Assembly (NCBI RefSeq): GCF_000759535.1 | Contig: NZ_CP009455.1 | Span: 3,534,001-3,598,000, forward strand | Direction: 5' to 3' | Length of the DNA stretch: 64,000 nucleotides | Source of the DNA: Pseudomonas cremoricolorata | GTDB taxonomy: Bacteria; Pseudomonadota; Gammaproteobacteria; Pseudomonadales; Pseudomonadaceae | Shown: positions 33,219 to 43,343 of the stretch, in pieces | Layout of the letters: every line of letters begins with the position of its first letter | Position numbering within the stretch: position 1 is the stretch's first letter | Notes under the pieces: model-generated | What the model saw: only the letters and a program-made list of their open reading frames with translations | Told to the model about the DNA's origin: nothing | Databases searched by the model: none | Position numbers and translations under genes: made by a program

Positions 33219-35633
33219 ATGTCCTTATTGCCGCGCCAGCACCCGCGCCTGGCGTCTTCGATTTCCATGCCCACCTTGTGTCTGGTCCTGGGCCTGAGCG
33301 CCGTGCCCGAGCTGGCGCTGGCCGAGACGCAGCCGCGCCACTTCCAGATTCCTGCCGGCACCCTGAGCAGCGCGCTGACCCGTTTTGCCGGACAGGCCGG
33401 GGTCAGCCTGTCGGTCGACCCTGCTCTGGTGGCTGGCAAGCAGAGCCCGGTGCTGTCCGGGCAGTACAGCGTGCAGGAAGGCTTTGCGCGTTTGCTGCAA
33501 GGCACTGGCCTGCAACTGCAGGCGGTTGGCACCGACAGCTACACCCTGGTGCCGATCGCCAGCGAAGGCGCCGCCCTGGAAATCGCGCCGACCACCATCC
33601 AGAGCCTGCAAGCCGGCGCGGCGCTGGAGGGCGAGCGCTATGCCGGCGGCCAGGTGGTGCGGCGCGGTTCCCAGGGGCTGCTGGGCTCGCGGGACTTCAT
33701 GGACACGCCGTTCAGCATGACCACCTACAGCAGCGAGTCGATCAAGGCCCAGCAGGCGCGCACCCTGAGCGACATGGTCGCCAGTGACCCTTCGGTGCGC
33801 ACCACCAACCCGGCCGGTGGACGTTTCGAGCAGTTCACCGTACGCGGTTTCAGCCTGTTCAACAGCGATGTCTCCTATGGCGGTCTGTACGGCGTGCTGC
33901 CGACCTACAGCATCGACATGGAAATGGCCGACCGGGTCGACATCATCAAAGGTCCGAGTCAGCTGATCAACGGCATCTCGCCGCGCGGCAGCGTCGGCGG
34001 CGGCATCAACATCGTGCCCAAGCACGCAGGCGACGCACCGCTCAGCGAATTCACCGCCAGCTACGCCTCTGACAGTCAACTGGGCGGCGCGGTGGACGTC
34101 AGCCGCCGCTTTGGCGACCAAGACCAGTTCGGCGTGCGCTTCAACGGCGTCAAACAGGCCGGCGATACCCCGTGGGACAAGCAGAGCGTCGATCGCCAGA
34201 TGGCCGTGGTCGGCCTGGATTTTCGCGGTGAGCGGCTGCGCCTGTCGACCGACTTCGGTCACACCGAGCGCTATACCGATGCGCCGCAGGAACGGGTGCT
34301 GGTCGGCGCCCTGGCCAAGGTGCCGGACGCCGACAAGGTGCGCCACAACTATGCGCAGAAGTGGAGCAAGGCGCGCACCCATGACACCTTTGGCATGATC
34401 AACGGTGAGTTCGATGTCAACGACTCGCTGATGGTCTACGGCGCCGTGGGCGCACGCGAAAGCAACCACGACTTCCTGCGCCACAATGTGCCGATCAGCA
34501 ACGATGCCGGCGACTTCGTCGTCGCCCCCCGCGGCTTCACCCGCGACGAGAGCGTGCGCACCGCCATAGCGGGTCTGCGCAACTGGTTCGATACCGGCTC
34601 GGTCAGCCATGAGGTGAACCTCTCGGCCAGCTACTTCTACATGGACTTCGAGAACGGCGACACCCGCTACGCCACCGGCAACAGCAACCTGTACGACCCG
34701 GTGGCAACGCCCAAACCCGGGTTGCCGACCCGGCCATCGTCGTCCACCTACACGGAAAACCGCTTCACCGGCGTGGCACTGTCCGACACCCTGGGCTTTC
34801 TCGATGACCGCCTGCTGCTGACCCTCGGCGCGCGCTGGCAGCGGGTGCAGGTGGATGACTGGGAAGACGGCGTCAAGGGCGAGACCGCCTACGACGAAGA
34901 AAAGCTCTCGCCGTCCGGCGGCATTCTGTTCAAGGCCACCGATCAATTGTCGTTGTACGCCAACTACATGGAAGGCCTGAGCCAGGGCAAGATCGCACCC
35001 GGCACAGCGAGCAACGAAGACGAAATCTTCCCGCCGTTCATCAGCCGTCAGCTGGAGGTGGGCGCCAAGTACGATTTTGGCCGCTACGCGCTGACCGCCA
35101 GCGCCTTTCGCATCAAGCAGCCGGCCTACGAGACCAACGCCGTCACGCGGGTGTTCGGCCCCAATGGCAAGCGCGAGAACACCGGTCTTGAGTTGAGCCT
35201 GTTCGGCGAACCGGTCAAGGGCGTGCGCCTGCTCGGTGGGGTGATGTACATCCACAGCGAGCTCAAGGACACCCTCGACAGCCGCTTCGACGGCAACCGC
35301 GCCCCGGCCACCCCGAGCTACAACGTCAACCTCGGTGCCGAATGGGACGTGCCCACGGTCGAGGGTCTGACCCTGACCGCGCGGGGTATTCATTCCAGCT
35401 CGCAGTACCTCGACCAGGCCAACAGCAAGAAGATCGACGGCTGGGAGCGCTACGACCTTGGTGCGCGCTATGCCTTCAAGGTCGAAGGTCGCGACGTGAC
35501 CCTGCGCGCCAGCGTCGAGAACGTGCTCAACGACCGTTACTGGGCCTCGGCCGGTGCCTCCGACGACAGCGAAGCCGGCCTGACCCTGTCGGCACCACGC
35601 ACCTGGTTGCTGTCGACCACCGTGGCGTTCTAA
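33219..35633 (+). CDS. TonB-dependent siderophore receptor with STN signalling domain
   Basis: An 804-aa outer-membrane receptor. A signal peptide ends near ELALA (about residue 35). A secretin/TonB N-terminal (STN) domain spans about residues 40-115 (FQIPAGTLSSALTRFAGQAGV). The plug follows (about 160-300, FEQFTVRGFSL, DIIKGPSQLINGISP), then a 22-strand barrel ending in aromatic TVAF. The family imports ferric siderophores such as hydroxamates and coprogen-like compounds. STN-bearing receptors normally signal through a FecR/FecI pair, but none is adjacent. A 17-bp imperfect hairpin follows the stop. Confidence 0.9.
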   Translation: MSLLPRQHPRLASSISMPTLCLVLGLSAVPELALAETQPRHFQIPAGTLSSALTRFAGQAGVSLSVDPALVAGKQSPVLSGQYSVQEGFARLLQGTGLQLQAVGTDSYTLVPIASEGAALEIAPTTIQSLQAGAALEGERYAGGQVVRRGSQGLLGSRDFMDTPFSMTTYSSESIKAQQARTLSDMVASDPSVRTTNPAGGRFEQFTVRGFSLFNSDVSYGGLYGVLPTYSIDMEMADRVDIIKGPSQLINGISPRGSVGGGINIVPKHAGDAPLSEFTASYASDSQLGGAVDVSRRFGDQDQFGVRFNGVKQAGDTPWDKQSVDRQMAVVGLDFRGERLRLSTDFGHTERYTDAPQERVLVGALAKVPDADKVRHNYAQKWSKARTHDTFGMINGEFDVNDSLMVYGAVGARESNHDFLRHNVPISNDAGDFVVAPRGFTRDESVRTAIAGLRNWFDTGSVSHEVNLSASYFYMDFENGDTRYATGNSNLYDPVATPKPGLPTRPSSSTYTENRFTGVALSDTLGFLDDRLLLTLGARWQRVQVDDWEDGVKGETAYDEEKLSPSGGILFKATDQLSLYANYMEGLSQGKIAPGTASNEDEIFPPFISRQLEVGAKYDFGRYALTASAFRIKQPAYETNAVTRVFGPNGKRENTGLELSLFGEPVKGVRLLGGVMYIHSELKDTLDSRFDGNRAPATPSYNVNLGAEWDVPTVEGLTLTARGIHSSSQYLDQANSKKIDGWERYDLGARYAFKVEGRDVTLRASVENVLNDRYWASAGASDDSEAGLTLSAPRTWLLSTTVAF

Positions 35634-35689: not shown

Positions 35690-35867
35690 AGGCGAACTGT
35701 CTGTAATAATCTTCGGCAAAATCCTGCCGATAACCTAGAATGCGCCGCACTCGCGATGGCGCATTGCGATTATCTGTTTGAATCTGCACAAACTATTCGA
35801 ACCTGCCAGTGTCATTCACTGCAGACAGAACGTTTTCGGGTTTCTTCCATTCTGGAGCACAGGGTTT

Positions 35868-36710
35868 ATGGCGACATTGCAGGGCAGTACGTTGGAAGCG
35901 ATCAAGAACAACCAAGACCAGCTACTGGATGAATGGATCGCCAGCCTCGAAAGCAACGGCGCCACCCGCAACCTCAAGGAGCAGGATCTGCGTCAGCAGA
36001 CCCGCGGTTTCCTTCAACTGCTCGCCGACGGCATGCAGTCTGCCGATGGGCAGGTCAGCAACGCCGAAGAGGTGCGTCGCTTCCTGGAAAAACTCTCGGC
36101 CTCGCGTGCGCAACTGGGCCATGATTCCCACCAGACGGCGTTCTTCATCTTCGCCCTCAAAGGTCCGCTGTTCAGCCTGTTGCAACGCCTCTACGCCGAT
36201 CAGCCTGCGCTGCTCGCCGAACAGCTGCTGGTGATCTCCGAGCTGCTCGACAGCCTCGGCATGCATACCGTGCGCGCGTACCAGATCACCCGCGAAGCGG
36301 TGATCCGCCGTCAGCAGGAAGAACTGCTGGAGCTGTCCACCCCGGTGGTCAAGCTGTGGGATGGGGTACTGGCCCTGCCGCTGATCGGCACCCTCGATTC
36401 GCAGCGCAGCCAGACCGTCATGGAGTCGCTGTTGCAACGCATCGTCGACACTGGCTCTGAAATCGCCATCATCGACATCACGGGTGTGCCAACCGTCGAC
36501 ACCCTGGTCGCCCAGCACCTGCTCAAGACCGTCACCGCCATTCGCCTGATGGGCGCTGATTGCATCATCAGCGGCGTGCGTCCGCAGATCGCGCAGACCA
36601 TCGTCCACCTCGGTCTGGACCTGAGCAGCATCACCACCAAGGCCAACCTGGCCGATGCCCTGAAGCTGGCGATCAAACGCCTGGATGTCGGCGACGCCGC
36701 GCGGGGTTGA
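35868..36710 (+). CDS. rsbR: Stressosome co-antagonist RsbR-like
   Basis: A 280-aa protein: an N-terminal four-helix sensor domain of the RsbRD type (residues about 1-150, no haem or flavin motif seen) and a C-terminal STAS domain (about 155-275; ITGVPTVDTLVAQHLL, GVRPQIAQTIVHLGL). In the stressosome, RsbR and RsbS form a large shell that holds the kinase RsbT until a signal arrives. Threonines in the VPTVDT and IAQT segments are the candidate phosphorylation sites. ATG 35868 is chosen because GGAG precedes it; upstream residues do not look like protein. First gene of a six-gene operon. Confidence 0.87.
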   Translation: MATLQGSTLEAIKNNQDQLLDEWIASLESNGATRNLKEQDLRQQTRGFLQLLADGMQSADGQVSNAEEVRRFLEKLSASRAQLGHDSHQTAFFIFALKGPLFSLLQRLYADQPALLAEQLLVISELLDSLGMHTVRAYQITREAVIRRQQEELLELSTPVVKLWDGVLALPLIGTLDSQRSQTVMESLLQRIVDTGSEIAIIDITGVPTVDTLVAQHLLKTVTAIRLMGADCIISGVRPQIAQTIVHLGLDLSSITTKANLADALKLAIKRLDVGDAARG

Positions 36711-36713
36711 GCC

Positions 36714-37076
36714 ATGGAACGGATTCCGATTCTGCAGATGGGCGAGTTCCTGCTGGTGACCATTCAGGTCGACATGCATGACCAACTGGCCCTGAACCTG
36801 CAGGAAGACCTCACCGATCGCATCAGCCGCACTTCGGCGCGCGGCGTGCTGATCGATATTTCCGCGCTGGACATGGTCGATTCGTTCATCGGCCGCATGA
36901 TCGCCAGCATTTCCGGGCTGTCGCGCATCATGGACGCCGAAACCATGGTGGTCGGCATGCAGCCGGCGGTGGCCATTACCCTGGTCGAGCTGGGCCTGAC
37001 CTTGCCGGGCGTCAGCACCGCGCTCACGGTCGAGCGCGGCATGCAGGTGCTGCGCAAACGGGTGGCTGGTCGATGA
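36714..37076 (+). CDS. rsbS: Stressosome scaffold RsbS-like (STAS)
   Basis: A 120-aa single STAS-domain protein. Ser57 in DMVDSFIGRM corresponds to the serine phosphorylated by RsbT in Bacillus RsbS. MQPAVAITLVELGL is the conserved second helix of the family. It starts three bases after the RsbR stop and overlaps RsbT by four bases (ATGA). Confidence 0.9.
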   Translation: MERIPILQMGEFLLVTIQVDMHDQLALNLQEDLTDRISRTSARGVLIDISALDMVDSFIGRMIASISGLSRIMDAETMVVGMQPAVAITLVELGLTLPGVSTALTVERGMQVLRKRVAGR

Positions 37077-37483
37077 ACGTCAACGTCAACCAGAGCGGCA
37101 GCCTGCCGGTGCGTGTCGAACAGGACGTGGTGCTGGCCCGGCAACAGGCGCGCAAGATCGCCAGTGAGCAGGGCATGCGCCTGGTCGACCTGACCAAGCT
37201 GGTCACCGCAGTCAGCGAGCTGGCCCGCAACACCGTGGTCTACGGCGGTGGTGGCGATATGGACTGGCAGGTCATCGAGCAGACCGGGCGTGCCGGCGTA
37301 CGCATTCTGTTTCGCGACGAAGGGCCAGGCATCGCCGATACCCGCCTGGCCCTGACCGACGGCTGGACGTCGGGCTCTGGCCTGGGACTGGGCCTGACCG
37401 GCGCACGGCGTCTGGTCGATGAATTCGACCTGGACACGGCGCCTGGCCAGGGCACGCGGATCACCATCACGCGATGGTTATGA
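37073..37483 (+). CDS. rsbT: Stressosome serine/threonine kinase RsbT-like
   Basis: A 136-aa kinase of the GHKL fold. N box ELARNTVVYGGGG, G1 box DEGPGIAD and G2 box GSGLGLGLTGARRL are all present, so it should bind ATP. In Bacillus, RsbT phosphorylates RsbR and RsbS and is then released to activate the phosphatase RsbU. Here no RsbU follows; its target is probably one of the phosphatase or kinase proteins encoded downstream. Confidence 0.9.
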   Translation: MNVNVNQSGSLPVRVEQDVVLARQQARKIASEQGMRLVDLTKLVTAVSELARNTVVYGGGGDMDWQVIEQTGRAGVRILFRDEGPGIADTRLALTDGWTSGSGLGLGLTGARRLVDEFDLDTAPGQGTRITITRWL

Positions 37484-38493
37484 CCCTGACCGCCAGTCTG
37501 ACCCAGGTGCTGGCCCTCGACGATTCCAGCCAGGTCGGCCATGCGCGGCGGGTCGCCCAGCGCCTGGCCGAGCGGCTGGGTTTCGATGAGGCCGATGCCG
37601 GACGGGTGGCGCTGGTCGCCACCGAGCTTGCCAGCAACGTGCTCAAGCACGCCCAGCGCGGCGCGCTGCACCTGCGTGCGCTGAGCCGCGCCGATGGCGT
37701 GGCGGGGGTGGAGCTACTGAGCGTCGATGGCGCTGCCGGTTTCGATCGCTCGCAATGCATGACCGATGGCTTTTCCACCGGCGGCACTCAGGGCATTGGT
37801 CTGGGCAGCGTGTCGCGTTCAGCCCAAGTATTCGACCTTTACAGCGACGACCACGGCTCGGTAGTGCTGGCCCGGCTGTACCCGGCTGGGCAGGGCAGCG
37901 ACGATGTGCGAATCGGCGTCAGCCAGCACTCGCTGCACGACGATCCGGCCTGCGGCGATACCTGGCAAGTCGCATTCCACGGTCCACTGCTCAGTGCCCT
38001 GGTGATCGATGGCCTGGGCCATGGCGCAGAGGCCGAACAGGCCGCGCTGGCCGGCGCACGGAGCTTTGCCGAGGCGCCGTTCGACCCGCCGCAGACCGTG
38101 CTCGAGCGGCTGCACGTGGACATGAACGGTACCCGCGGCGGCGCGGTGGCCATCGCGCAGTTCGATGCCACACAGGGCACACTGCACTACGTCGGCGTTG
38201 GCAACATCGGCGCTACCCTGGCCGACGCCCAACACAGCCACGGCCTGGCCTCGCTGCCGGGCATCGTCGGCGGGCAATACCGCAAGAGCCAGGTGTTCGA
38301 CTACGCTCACCTCAACCACCATTTGCTGATCATGTACAGCGACGGCCTGCAGTCGCGCTGGAACCTGCACACCTACCCCGGTCTGGTCCATCGCCATCCC
38401 GCCGTCATCGCCGCTGTGCTGCACCGCGATTTCTGCCGTGGCCGTGATGACGTGACGGTGCTGGTCATCGACCTGGAGTTCAGCCATGCCTGA
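37474..38493 (+). CDS. SpoIIE-type phosphatase with N-terminal GHKL ATPase domain (RsbX-like)
   Basis: A 339-aa protein. Residues about 1-135 form an anti-sigma-kinase-like ATPase domain (VALVATELASNVLKHA, GFSTGGTQGIGLGS). Residues 145-335 are a PP2C/SpoIIE phosphatase (VIDGLGHGAEAEQAAL for metal binding, GRDDVTVLVIDLE at the end). By analogy with RsbX it would remove phosphate from RsbR and RsbS and reset the stressosome. It overlaps RsbT by ten bases and the next kinase gene by eight. Confidence 0.82.
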   Translation: MVMTLTASLTQVLALDDSSQVGHARRVAQRLAERLGFDEADAGRVALVATELASNVLKHAQRGALHLRALSRADGVAGVELLSVDGAAGFDRSQCMTDGFSTGGTQGIGLGSVSRSAQVFDLYSDDHGSVVLARLYPAGQGSDDVRIGVSQHSLHDDPACGDTWQVAFHGPLLSALVIDGLGHGAEAEQAALAGARSFAEAPFDPPQTVLERLHVDMNGTRGGAVAIAQFDATQGTLHYVGVGNIGATLADAQHSHGLASLPGIVGGQYRKSQVFDYAHLNHHLLIMYSDGLQSRWNLHTYPGLVHRHPAVIAAVLHRDFCRGRDDVTVLVIDLEFSHA

Positions 38494-39361
38494 CCCGCTT
38501 TCCCTCGACGGCGCCGCCCAGGCGGCGCTGATCACCCGCCTGCAGGCCGAGACCCAGGCCCTGCGCGCCGAGCTGGATGAAACCAACCAGGGCGTGTTGG
38601 CGTTGTACGCCGAACTGGACAATCAGGCCGAACAGTTGCGTCAGGCGTCCGACCTGAAAAGCCGGTTCCTGTCATACATGAGCCATGAATTTCGCACCCC
38701 CCTGGGCTCGATCCTGAGCATCACTCGTCTGCTCGCCGACGAACTGGACGGGCCGCTGTCGGATGAGCAACACAAGCAGGTGGCATTCGTCAGCACGGCT
38801 ACCCGAGAGTTGTCGGACATGGTCGACGACCTGCTCGACCTTGCCAAGATCGAGGCCGGACGCATCAGCATTTCGCCAGCCTGGTTCGACATGCTGGATT
38901 TGTTCGCTGCCTTGCGCGGCATGTTCCGGCCCATCGTCAACGCCACTGCCGTCGACCTGATCTTCGAAGAACCACAAGGCCTGCCGCAGCTCTACAGCGA
39001 TGACAAGAAGCTGTCGCAGATCCTGCGCAACTTCATCGCCAATGCGCTGAAGTTCACCGTGCGCGGGGAAGTGCGGGTGTCGGCCCAGCGCGTGGGTGAC
39101 GACCGGGTGCGCTTCACCGTGAGCGACACTGGCATCGGTATCGCCCCTGATTTGCTGGCCTCGCTGTTCGAGGACTTCAGCCAGGTCGAGTCGCCGTTGC
39201 AGAAACGCCTGCGCGGCACTGGCCTTGGGCTTTCACTGTGCAAGCGCTTCGCCGAGCTGCTGGGCGGGGAAGTGGGGGTGCACAGTGAGCCGAACGTGGG
39301 TTCGTCGTTCTACGTGACCATTCCTCTGGCCCTGGAGCAGGAGGGCGCCGATGGGCAATGA
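38486..39361 (+). CDS. Soluble histidine kinase in the stressosome operon
   Basis: A 291-aa kinase without membrane spans or a recognisable sensor domain. A coiled coil (residues about 10-60, LQAETQALRAELDETNQ) leads directly into the H box with His67 (YMSHEFRTPLGS). An ATPase domain follows with N, G1 and G2 boxes (NFIANALKFT, DTGIGIAPD, GTGLGLSLCKRF). Signal input is therefore probably through protein contact, perhaps with released RsbT. The start overlaps the phosphatase gene and its end overlaps the hybrid kinase gene by 11 bases. Confidence 0.85.
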   Translation: MPDPLSLDGAAQAALITRLQAETQALRAELDETNQGVLALYAELDNQAEQLRQASDLKSRFLSYMSHEFRTPLGSILSITRLLADELDGPLSDEQHKQVAFVSTATRELSDMVDDLLDLAKIEAGRISISPAWFDMLDLFAALRGMFRPIVNATAVDLIFEEPQGLPQLYSDDKKLSQILRNFIANALKFTVRGEVRVSAQRVGDDRVRFTVSDTGIGIAPDLLASLFEDFSQVESPLQKRLRGTGLGLSLCKRFAELLGGEVGVHSEPNVGSSFYVTIPLALEQEGADGQ

Positions 39362-41287
39362 CGTGCGCCTGCTGATCGTCGACGACAACATCGTCACCCG
39401 CTACGCCCTGCGCCGGCGTCTGGCCATGCACGGGTTCGAGGTGCTCGAAGCCGGCACAGGCACCGAAGGTCTGGCGGTGCTGGCGGAAACGGCGGTGGAT
39501 GCGCTGATTCTCGACGTCAACCTGCCCGACATGAGCGGCTTCGACGTGGTGCGCATTCTGCGTCAGGCGCCGGAGACGGCGCTGTTGCCAATCATTCATG
39601 TCTCTGCGGCATCGATCCAGACGGGCGACATCATCACCGGCCTGGACAATGGCGCTGATGCCTACCTGATTCACCCCGTTGACCCTGACGTACTGCTGGC
39701 CACCTTGCGCACCCTGCTGCGGGTGCGTGACAGTGAGCGTGCGCTGCGCGAAAGCGAGGCGAGCTTCCGGGAAATTTTCAACAACGTGTCTGCCCCCATC
39801 GCCTTGCTCGACGCCCAGCTCAAGGTGCATGAGTGCAACCACGCCTTCGCCACGCTGGTGCAGGACAATTGCAACGCCGAACGTCTCGATGAGTGCTTCG
39901 GCACCGGCCAGGAAGCGATGTTGCAAGAGCTGCGGGTGCATCTTGCCGCCGGCGCGCGTTGGCGCGGTACGGTAGCGATGGCCCAGCATGGTCAGCCGCG
40001 GGAAACCGAATGGCAGCTGTCGCCGTATCGCGTGCCGGGGTTGTCGCTGGTGTTCGTCGAGGACATTACCGAGCACCGCCACCGCGAACGTTCGCACCTG
40101 GCGCAGCTGGACGATGCCAACAGTCAGTTGGCCCGGGAAGTCGCCGAGCGCGTGCGCACCGAAGCGCAGTTGCTGCAGTTGCAGAAGATGGACGGCCTCG
40201 GCCGCCTCACCGGGGGTATCGCCCATGACTTCAACAACTTGCTGACCGGCATCATCACCAGCCTGGAGCTGATCCGCAAACGGGTCGGTGAAGGGCGCCT
40301 GGAGAAGATTCCGGCCTACACCGATGCTGCGCTCAATTCCGCCATGAGCGCCGCCTCGCTGACCCACCGTCTGCTGGCGTTCGCCCGCCAGCAACCGCTC
40401 GACACCCGGCCGGTGGACGTCAATCGTCACGTGCTGTCGTTGCAAGACCTGCTGGCCCGCACTATCGGCGAGCGCATCCGTCTGGAGCTGTCGCTGTCGA
40501 GCCGTCCGGCCATCGCCCTGGTCGATCCGGTGCAACTGGAAAGCGCCGTGCTCAACCTGGTGATCAACGCACGGGATGCGCTGCCCAAGGGTGGCACCAT
40601 CTGGGTCAACACCTCGGCGGCCTGGGCCTCGGGTGATCCGCATCTCAAGGACGGCCCGTACGTCTCGGTGAGCGTTCGCGACGACGGCATGGGCATCGAT
40701 CCGGCAGTGCAGGACAAAGTCTTCGACCCGTTCTTCACCACCAAGCCGCTGGGCCAGGGCACGGGGCTGGGGCTGTCGACCATTTATGGTTTTGCCCGGC
40801 AATCGGGCGGTCATGTGGCGCTGCGCAGTCTGGTGGGGCGCGGAACCGAAGTCACCCTGATGCTGCCGGCCAGCGGCGAGGCTGCCGACAGCGGCACGCC
40901 GCTGGGACGTATCGAGCAGCCTGGCCACGGTGAGCACGTGCTGATCGTCGAGGACATGCCCTCTGTGCGCTCATCGGTGGCCGAGGTGCTGCTCGATGCC
41001 GGTTATCAGTGCAGTCAGGCCGAGACCATCGAACAGGCCCTCGACCAACTGCGGGAAAATCCAGGCATCGCGCTACTGCTGACCGACGTAGGCCTGCCGG
41101 CCATGAGCGGCCGTGAGCTGGCCGATATGGCGCGTACCTACCGTCCCGGATTGCCCGTGCTACTGATGACCGGCTACGCGGAAACGGCCCTGGACCGCCA
41201 GGCCTTTCTCGGTGAGGACATGGACCTGCTGATCAAACCTTTCCATATCGCCGACCTGCTGGACAAGGTCAGTCAGGCCCTGAACCG

Positions 41288-41297
<10 letters not shown>
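39351..41297 (+). CDS. Hybrid histidine kinase REC-PAS-HK-REC
   Basis: A 648-aa protein. N-terminal receiver (Asp55 in LILDVNLPDMSG), PAS-like domain (about 140-250), histidine kinase with His292 (GGIAHDFNNLL), ATPase domain (GTGLGLSTIYGFARQ) and a C-terminal receiver (Asp579 in LLLTDVGLPAMSG). There is no DNA-binding or cyclase output, so it must signal to a separate protein. The first receiver could accept phosphate from the kinase encoded just upstream. It ends the operon and overlaps tail-to-tail by ten bases with the opposing sensor kinase gene. Confidence 0.87.
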
Positions 41298-42662
<1,365 letters not shown>

Positions 42663-42685
<23 letters not shown>

Positions 42686-43343
42686 AGCCCGAGCCCCGTA
42701 CCGTGCGAATCAGCGGGGTCTGGCCAGGCGAGTCGATCTTCTTGCGCAGGCGGCCGATGTGCACATCGATCAAGTTGGTGCCTGGGTCGAAGTGATAACC
42801 CCAGACTTCCTCGAAAATCATCATGCGGGTAATCACCTGGCCAGCGTGGCGCATCAGGTATTCGAGCAGTTTGTACTCGGTGGGCAGCAGGTTCAGCGCC
42901 TGCTCGCCACGCCGCGCTTCATGGCTGATCAGGTCAAGCTCCAGGTCGCAGACCTGCAGGCGGGTCTGCGTCACCGGGACGCTGTTACGGCGCAGCAGTA
43001 CCTCGACGCGGGCGGCCATTTCATCCGAGGCGAACGGCTTGGTCAGGTAGTCGTCACCGCCAGCGCGCAGGCCGCGGACACGCTCGTCGACATCCGACAG
43101 CGCGCTGATCATCAGAATCGGGGTGGTGATCTTCAGGCTGCGCAGGGTGGTGACGATGGTCAGGCCATCGACCTCGGGCAGCATGCGGTCGAGGGTGATC
43201 AGGTCGTAACCGCCGCCGATGGCCTTGGACAGCCCCTCGCGGCCGTTGTCGGCCCAGTCGACTTCCAGGCCGTGGCTGGACAATTCAGCGACGATTTCCT
43301 GGGCGGTGACGGCGTCGTCTTCGATGGTCAGTACGCGGGGCAT
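42663..43343 (-). CDS. OmpR-family response regulator
   Basis: A 226-aa regulator. Receiver with phosphorylation site in DLITLDRMLPEVDG, and a winged-helix DNA-binding domain (LLPTEYKLLEYLMRHAGQVITR, VDVHIGRLRKKID). It pairs with the overlapping sensor kinase gene downstream. No metal-efflux or other target gene lies beside it, so the target is unknown. Confidence 0.9.

Follow-up and report, generated by a model that had tools for sequence, protein, structure and literature searches.

This report concerns an operon of Pseudomonas cremoricolorata in which genes for stressosome components are followed by genes for two histidine kinases, HK1 and HK2. It lies in a 64,000-nt stretch of contig NZ_CP009455.1 (positions 3,534,001-3,598,000), referred to below as the window, and all coordinates are window positions. 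Open reading frames and Pfam matches confirmed the six co-directional genes that the initial annotation had placed at 35868-41297 on the + strand, encoding RsbR, RsbS, RsbT, a fusion of an RsbT-like ATPase to an RsbX-like phosphatase (called X throughout), HK1 and HK2. A gap of 3 bp separates RsbR from RsbS, the next four junctions overlap by 4, 10, 8 and 11 bp, and the gene 3' of HK2 is convergent and overlaps the end of HK2. The features are as follows:

35868..36710, + strand: RsbR, an RsbRD_N sensor domain plus STAS (Pfam), with T175 and T212 as phospho-acceptor equivalents
36714..37076, + strand: RsbS, STAS alone (Pfam), with S57 as acceptor equivalent
37073..37483, + strand: RsbT, a GHKL switch kinase, HATPase_c_2 (Pfam)
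37474..38493, + strand: X, HATPase_c_2 (residues ~1-135) plus a sub-threshold SpoIIE match (~143-338) corresponding to an RsbX-type PP2C phosphatase (Pfam)
38486..39361, + strand: HK1, soluble, with an N-terminal helical linker, then HisKA and HATPase_c, and without a receiver (Pfam)
38579..38620, + strand: HK1 linker motif, residues 32-45, ETNQGVLALYAELD, a putative RsbT docking site proposed from sequence
39351..41297, + strand: HK2, REC1-PAS-HisKA(HDFNNLL)-HATPase_c-REC2, REC1 and REC2 being receivers (Pfam)
35713..35741, + strand: weak sigma-70-like promoter candidate 127 bp 5' of rsbR, with 9/12 consensus matches (mean of 0.2 in shuffles), which is no proof of function

The first important finding is that HK1 carries a near-invariant motif, TN-x-G-V-x-A-L-Y-x-E-L, in the helix before its dimerization and histidine phosphotransfer (DHp) domain, where residues 9-84 form one predicted helix running into DHp (predicted local distance difference test score, pLDDT, 82.5). 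Conservation is 0.97 over residues 32-45, compared with 0.91 for DHp and 0.85 for the ATPase domain, in 68 loci plus the window that were not selected by motif; these figures were preferred because a separate run on 82 sequences, partly picked by the motif and excluding the loci L089 and L090 and the pattern-less kinases, is circular (L numbers label the homologous loci compared). In a six-frame scan, every one of the 69 loci bearing X had a single occurrence of the motif. Among the matches listed, it is present in 119/120 HK1 relatives and 0/120 RsbU relatives, and it occurs in 0/14 loci with the RsbU_N domain. The host genome has 50 HisKA matches, and of 30 such loci scanned in all six frames (an H-box segment was extracted for 24 of them) HK1 alone has the motif. 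A variant, TNRGIVALYAEIE, is found in L087 and L174 and fell outside the first motif pattern.

The motif also co-occurs with X. When a 56-residue linker query was compared with a draw of 398 genomes from the phylum Pseudomonadota, 50 genomes gave a match at E 1e-6. In 15 of these the match was strong (below 1e-12), and every one of the 15 belongs to the 26 genomes of the draw that have X at E <=1e-15 (Fisher p 1.3e-20). The motif is also found in G528, a genome with a weaker linker match (L089), and in G520, for which no match is listed at the threshold (L090). It was not found in 14 weak-match loci (L179-L184 and L186-L193, L186 being without a displayed aligned stretch); 26 more weak matches lie outside this set. 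The main rival explanation is that RsbT controls HK1 by Ser/Thr phosphorylation, perhaps of Thr33, which is invariant in the linker, in a transient kinase-substrate contact. Transient phosphorylation was suggested for Vibrio (Heinz 2022, PMC9237108), and a Moorella RsbT homologue is reported to phosphorylate a diguanylate cyclase (PMC4976288). However, Thr33 is no more invariant than N34, G36, V37, A39, L40, Y41, E43 and L44, a pattern more in keeping with a binding surface than with one phosphorylated residue. We regard control by phosphorylation as unlikely.

The second important finding is that RsbT-like domains are fused to histidine kinases in sister operons. In L080-L086, from Pseudomonadaceae, and in L088, whose relatives are named Bradyrhizobium, the kinase after X is 585-609 aa long and has an RsbT-like HATPase_c_2 domain, then the motif, then DHp (by Pfam for L080 and L088, the remaining ones being read from sequence). 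The best 120 of 6572 relatives of the L088 stretch all have PF13581, PF02518, PF00512 and the motif. L090 has an RsbT-like domain and the motif ahead of an HDFNN-type kinase and L089 has the motif ahead of a kinase matching that of HK2, which indicates that the motif travels apart from the HK1 type of kinase. In a domain tree built from 12/69 loci, the window and fetched distant loci, the nine fused RsbT-like domains form one clade (100/98) apart from both RsbT and the X domain, and the fork joining them with RsbT is weak (98/61); 30/34 RsbT rows cluster, the window RsbT among them, and four rows from distant loci fall on the X side. When some lineages fuse a domain to a protein that others encode as its separate neighbor, a functional contact between the two is classically suspected, and the fusions thus hint that RsbT may act on the HK1 helix. 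Other distant operons have different downstream proteins: an RsbT-like domain on a HisKA_2 kinase in L093, where the motif was not found, and by Pfam a GGDEF-EAL protein in L094 and a GGDEF protein in L114. The L094 protein (L094:7067-9226) follows X, and its starting coil, ADSSQGLIAITLELENAQ, is faintly like the HK1 motif. The Bradyrhizobium-like operon of L088 is closed by a 118-aa single-domain receiver (L088:10389-10745), whose FASGYG stretch we take to be like that of receivers of the alphaproteobacterial stress response.

These findings suggest that RsbT may directly gate a histidine kinase in trans through binding to TN-x-G-[VI]-x-A-L-Y-x-E, a short helix motif that is portable and lies before DHp, the RsbT-like/HK fusions being the cis version and the motif a second RsbT-docking module beside RsbU_N. 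There is a precedent in Bacillus, where RsbT contacts and orders the flexible linker of RsbU (PMC12143880). If the proposal is true, to which we give slightly less than an even chance, the motif lets stressosomes plug into two-component signaling. Several points weigh against it. The sister operons encode a free RsbT too, and their fused RsbT-like domain may serve another purpose. Tests of interaction between Vibrio RsbT and VvD1, the downstream kinase, are reported to have given no positive result (Heinz 2022, PMC9237108), which counts against stable docking there. The co-occurrence p value overstates independence because the genomes are related, and the 56-residue query includes the start of the DHp helix. 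The motif was not found in the X-bearing operons L093, L094, L111, L112 and L116. Finally, the motif is unlike the RsbU linker beyond a few positions. Homology between the two (T-N-R/Q-G in HK1, T89-x-R91-G92 in RsbU) was considered and rejected: across 50 different segments of RsbU relatives, S usually replaces T89, and G92 is unconserved, with D, H, N, Q or K often in its place. This variability, together with the absence of the motif from the RsbU_N loci, means that the functional analogy was kept and homology dropped.

The RsbT-like ATPase domain of X, and not RsbT, could also be the partner of HK1, in which case X would be a kinase/phosphatase reporting the state of the scaffold to HK1. 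Its ATPase motif residues E51, N55, D85, G107, G109 and G111 are invariant in 41/41 sequences, the gene for X runs 8 bp into that for HK1 in the window, and X is present in every genome with a strong linker match. By contrast, RsbX domains act on RsbR/RsbS, and the clade of kinase-fused domains groups, through a fork that is not firm, with RsbT and not with the X domain, so we consider a partnership of X with HK1 rather improbable. The phosphatase domain of X is itself well preserved, with D162, D179, G182, H183, D290, D325 and D326 invariant in 41/41 sequences. The predicted model (pLDDT 91.9) has 3zt9 and RsbX (3w40) as top fold matches, SpoIIAB chains matching too. For the phosphatase domain the nearest fold is 3zt9, which we take to be the structure of the Moorella thermoacetica stressosome phosphatase (Quin 2012). 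A dead phosphatase, as the Pfam score under the cut-off might imply, is unlikely in view of the invariant metal-site residues and the fold match. X thus has the predicted PP2C fold of RsbX with metal-binding Asp residues but is no single-domain protein, its N-terminal HATPase_c_2 domain supporting the initial claim of a phosphatase with its own ATPase domain.

The stressosome parts upstream of X look functional, as judged from their residues. RsbR combines a sensor domain with a STAS domain bearing two Thr sites, RsbS is a STAS protein with a Ser site, and rsbT adjoins rsbS. The T175 equivalent of RsbR is Thr in 82/89 sequences and Ala in 7/89, the T212 equivalent is Thr in 88/89 and Ser in 1, and the S57 equivalent of RsbS is Ser in 83/84 and Thr in 1; we take T175 and T212 to be equivalent to Bacillus T171 and T205, and S57 to S59. 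The seven Ala are those of the sister operons L080-L086, which leaves the second site alone there; these are the operons in which the kinase bears a fused RsbT-like domain. In RsbR, conservation is 0.67 for the sensor domain and 0.97 for STAS, and a variable sensor on a near-fixed STAS domain is expected for a sensor carried on a scaffold. RsbR and RsbS would assemble into a large RsbT-binding particle.

The host has no evident sigma-B cascade. A profile search of the genome gave no match to RsbU_N (PF08673), the control match being in B. subtilis only, and RsbU_N is present in 9/398 genomes of the phylum draw. Of the 22 PF13581 matches in the host, the best two are X and RsbT, and the other 20 lie in frames of 242-1375 aa, 18 of which are at least 414 aa long, as for histidine kinases. 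The 242-aa frame scores 46.6 bits with HATPase_c and 27.7 bits with HATPase_c_2, and a 324-aa frame starting with an HDDIGQ stretch is presumably sensor-kinase-like. No RsbW-like kinase besides RsbT is therefore evident among these 22 matches, 18 of them judged by frame length. The SpoIIE-type matches of the host comprise X itself, a REC-SpoIIE protein with a STAS protein encoded after it (presumably RssB-like and RssC-like, respectively), and a phosphatase of 244 aa that has a frame like a protein kinase next to it. A second RsbR is not evident among the seven STAS matches, which, besides RsbR and RsbS, comprise the 171-aa frame 3' of the RssB-like gene, one frame of 118 aa and three that are 532-578 aa long. 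These results support the earlier description of a stressosome without a sigma-B cascade that is joined to two histidine kinases, and Pfam likewise places no output domain in any of the six proteins.

How the signal would travel beyond HK1 is less straightforward. Within HK2, conservation is highest in REC1 (0.87), and both acidic residues, the acceptor Asp55 and Ser85 are present in 70/70 sequences, but the usual Lys is His108 in 70/70, so that REC1 is not a canonical receiver. Of 15 further operons, 12 likewise have His at this position, L087 has Ala, and two distant ones, L112 and L116, have Lys. REC2 has the residues of a canonical receiver at the positions counted (Asp and Lys in 69/70, Thr/Ser in 69/70, the exception being a contig that ends early). 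In CheY-like proteins that have lost the Lys, phosphorylation no longer brings about the usual change of conformation, which suggests that REC1 may bind phosphate in another way or serve for docking. Hence, the stressosome-to-His-Asp relay of the initial annotation stands in part: the step from RsbT to HK1 is favored by comparison, through the fusions and the motif co-occurrence, whereas the His in place of Lys makes a simple relay from HK1 to REC1 less certain, and an ordinary HK1-to-HK2 relay is not a given. It is a real, if tentative, possibility that REC1 works as a pseudo-receiver, sensing or holding HK1 instead of taking up phosphate, with no relay between them, an option that concerns this one step and is compatible with RsbT acting on HK1. 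It is favored by the invariant His and by the high conservation of REC1, but, given the invariant acidic pair, Asp55 and Ser85, REC1 may still be phosphorylated.

The operon itself has no HPt (histidine phosphotransfer) domain by Pfam in its six proteins. The host has 13 HPt matches, twelve in frames of at least 765 aa and one in a 120-aa frame; the latter is the single free-standing HPt, a 115-aa protein (4.6e-15), and is encoded ~230 bp after a frame that we take to be fliJ-like and before one that we take to be fliK-like, the HPt itself being presumably HptB-like. Our guess is that this protein is the first candidate for the next step after REC2, the RssB-like protein, with its own receiver, being an alternative end point. 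An ordinary HptB-HsbR-HsbA chain was rejected because no HsbR/HsbA-like frame is near the HPt; HsbR was not found, the only strong SpoIIE match of the genome being the RssB-like REC-SpoIIE protein.

The six-gene arrangement is widespread. A scan of genome contigs yielded 69 X loci, 64 from records titled Pseudomonas, one Stutzerimonas, two Luteibacter, one a Candidatus Eremiobacteraeota bin and one "gamma proteobacterium L18," and the six genes occur in the same order in 69/69 (one contig stops within HK2). The six proteins of L011, from Pseudomonas cremoricolorata DSM 17059, are 92-99% identical to those of the window. X is present in 52/119 genomes of the genus draw: in 47, one of them the host, it matches at >=60% identity, in another four, of the sister type, at 37-41%, and in one it is split over several frames; in the class draw it is present in 16/274 genomes at the E threshold used for the phylum. 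The "exact six-gene wiring" is thus not special to this genome, and the gene-neighborhood survey that the initial annotation had called for shows six genes kept together between flanks that differ. HK1 and HK2 might still be transcriptional neighbors only, with RsbT acting on a protein encoded elsewhere, and the undetected interaction of RsbT with VvD1 (Heinz 2022, PMC9237108) would agree with this. We find it very improbable, however, because the order of the six genes is kept despite differing neighbors, and because of the motif-X co-occurrence and the RsbT-like/HK fusions.

Genes flanking the 69 loci belong to many different families. Both the convergent OmpR-type pair at 41288-43343 and the upstream gene at 33219-35633, presumably receptor-like, were rejected as members of the unit, and no final output was credited to flanking genes, because these vary from locus to locus. 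In 11/69 loci (L041, L042, L051, L053, L054, L056, L060, L064, L069, L072 and L076) one family of large kinases lies 3' of HK2 on the same strand; its L053 member has PHY, GAF and PAS_2 domains and is a bacteriophytochrome, and a CheY-like gene is called next after the large kinase in 8/11. A comparable phytochrome-CheY-hybrid kinase operon is reported in Ramlibacter (PMC6848086), and it is possible that the stressosome is tied to red-light sensing in those 11 loci. Among the four nearest genes called on each flank of the operon, one hybrid-kinase family contributes 25 members, which vary in distance and strand. That of L053 is REC-PAS-HisKA-HATPase_c-REC, and the association may reflect linkage or coincidence. 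Thirteen gammaproteobacterial loci (L098-L110) have an X-like gene, then an RsbR-like gene in most and an RsbS-like gene in some; a search of these loci found no RsbT and the order of X, R and S differs, and this is probably a separate system, possibly another kind of partner switching.

Taken together, these results are consistent with a stressosome that has a histidine kinase output. RsbR and RsbS would form a sensing scaffold holding RsbT, which upon stress would phosphorylate them and then be released. By analogy with RsbT and the RsbU linker in Bacillus, free RsbT would dock on the HK1 helix at TN-x-G-V-x-A-L-Y-x-E-L and set HK1 kinase activity, in whichever direction that effect runs. 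HK1 would then cooperate with HK2, the phosphoryl group ending on REC2 and passing to a target encoded elsewhere, with the free-standing HPt as the first candidate recipient, while X would dephosphorylate RsbR and RsbS and so reset the scaffold. We put the chance that RsbT docks on the HK1 linker to set its activity, that HK1 works with HK2 and that X resets the scaffold at about even.

The general idea of coupling stressosomes to two-component modules is already in print, since RSTX modules with eleven downstream architectures, HisKA/REC phosphorelays among them, have been described for globin-type RsbR, most of their downstream proteins being without RsbU_N (Heinz 2022, PMC9237108). What is new here is the HK1 linker motif, the RsbT-like/HK fusions, the His in place of Lys in REC1 and the single free-standing HPt candidate. 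Among the literature titles listed, none dealt with such a stressosome in Pseudomonas, with the fusions or with the motif, and X is nevertheless present in 52/119 genus genomes; the Pane-Farre 2005 review and its 2017 successor may list similar operons. The way in which the signal leaves stressosomes without a downstream RsbU_N protein is unsettled in print, transient phosphorylation being the suggestion of Heinz 2022 (PMC9237108). The motif, which marks the kinase encoded after X, and the RsbT-like/HK fusions of matching architecture open that question to direct tests on two small proteins and their point mutants.

Comparison with known systems highlights both similarities and differences. 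The rsbRSTX-D1-D2 locus of Vibrio vulnificus, of which deletion mutants have been studied (Cutugno 2023, PMC10014275), likewise has RSTX followed by a two-component module without RsbU or sigma B (PMC9237108; PMC10014275). However, its RsbR is reported to have a haem globin sensor, whereas RsbR here has RsbRD_N and no globin domain by Pfam; the phosphatases of globin clusters are described as single-domain proteins, whereas X is fused to an RsbT-like ATPase; and the D1-D2 pair is tied to cyclic-di-GMP, whereas no cyclase or phosphodiesterase domain is found here. The rsbRSTX modules of Dogia and Ruegeria share the combination of a stressosome with HisKA and REC proteins, but they are described for globin-RsbR clusters, and neither a linker motif nor RsbT-like/HK fusions are mentioned in the portion of Heinz 2022 that we draw on. 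Bacillus subtilis RsbU, like HK1 in the proposed scheme, is a target of RsbT whose catalytic domain is preceded by a long dimeric helix (PMC12143880), but it has the RsbU_N docking domain, whereas HK1 has no RsbU_N match and its motif is, as far as tested, not homologous to the RsbU linker. Finally, the Moorella thermoacetica stressosome shares with this one a phosphatase fold, that of X being nearest to 3zt9, and an output other than a sigma factor, which in Moorella is reported to be a diguanylate cyclase with RsbU_N (PMC12143880) and here would be a histidine kinase.

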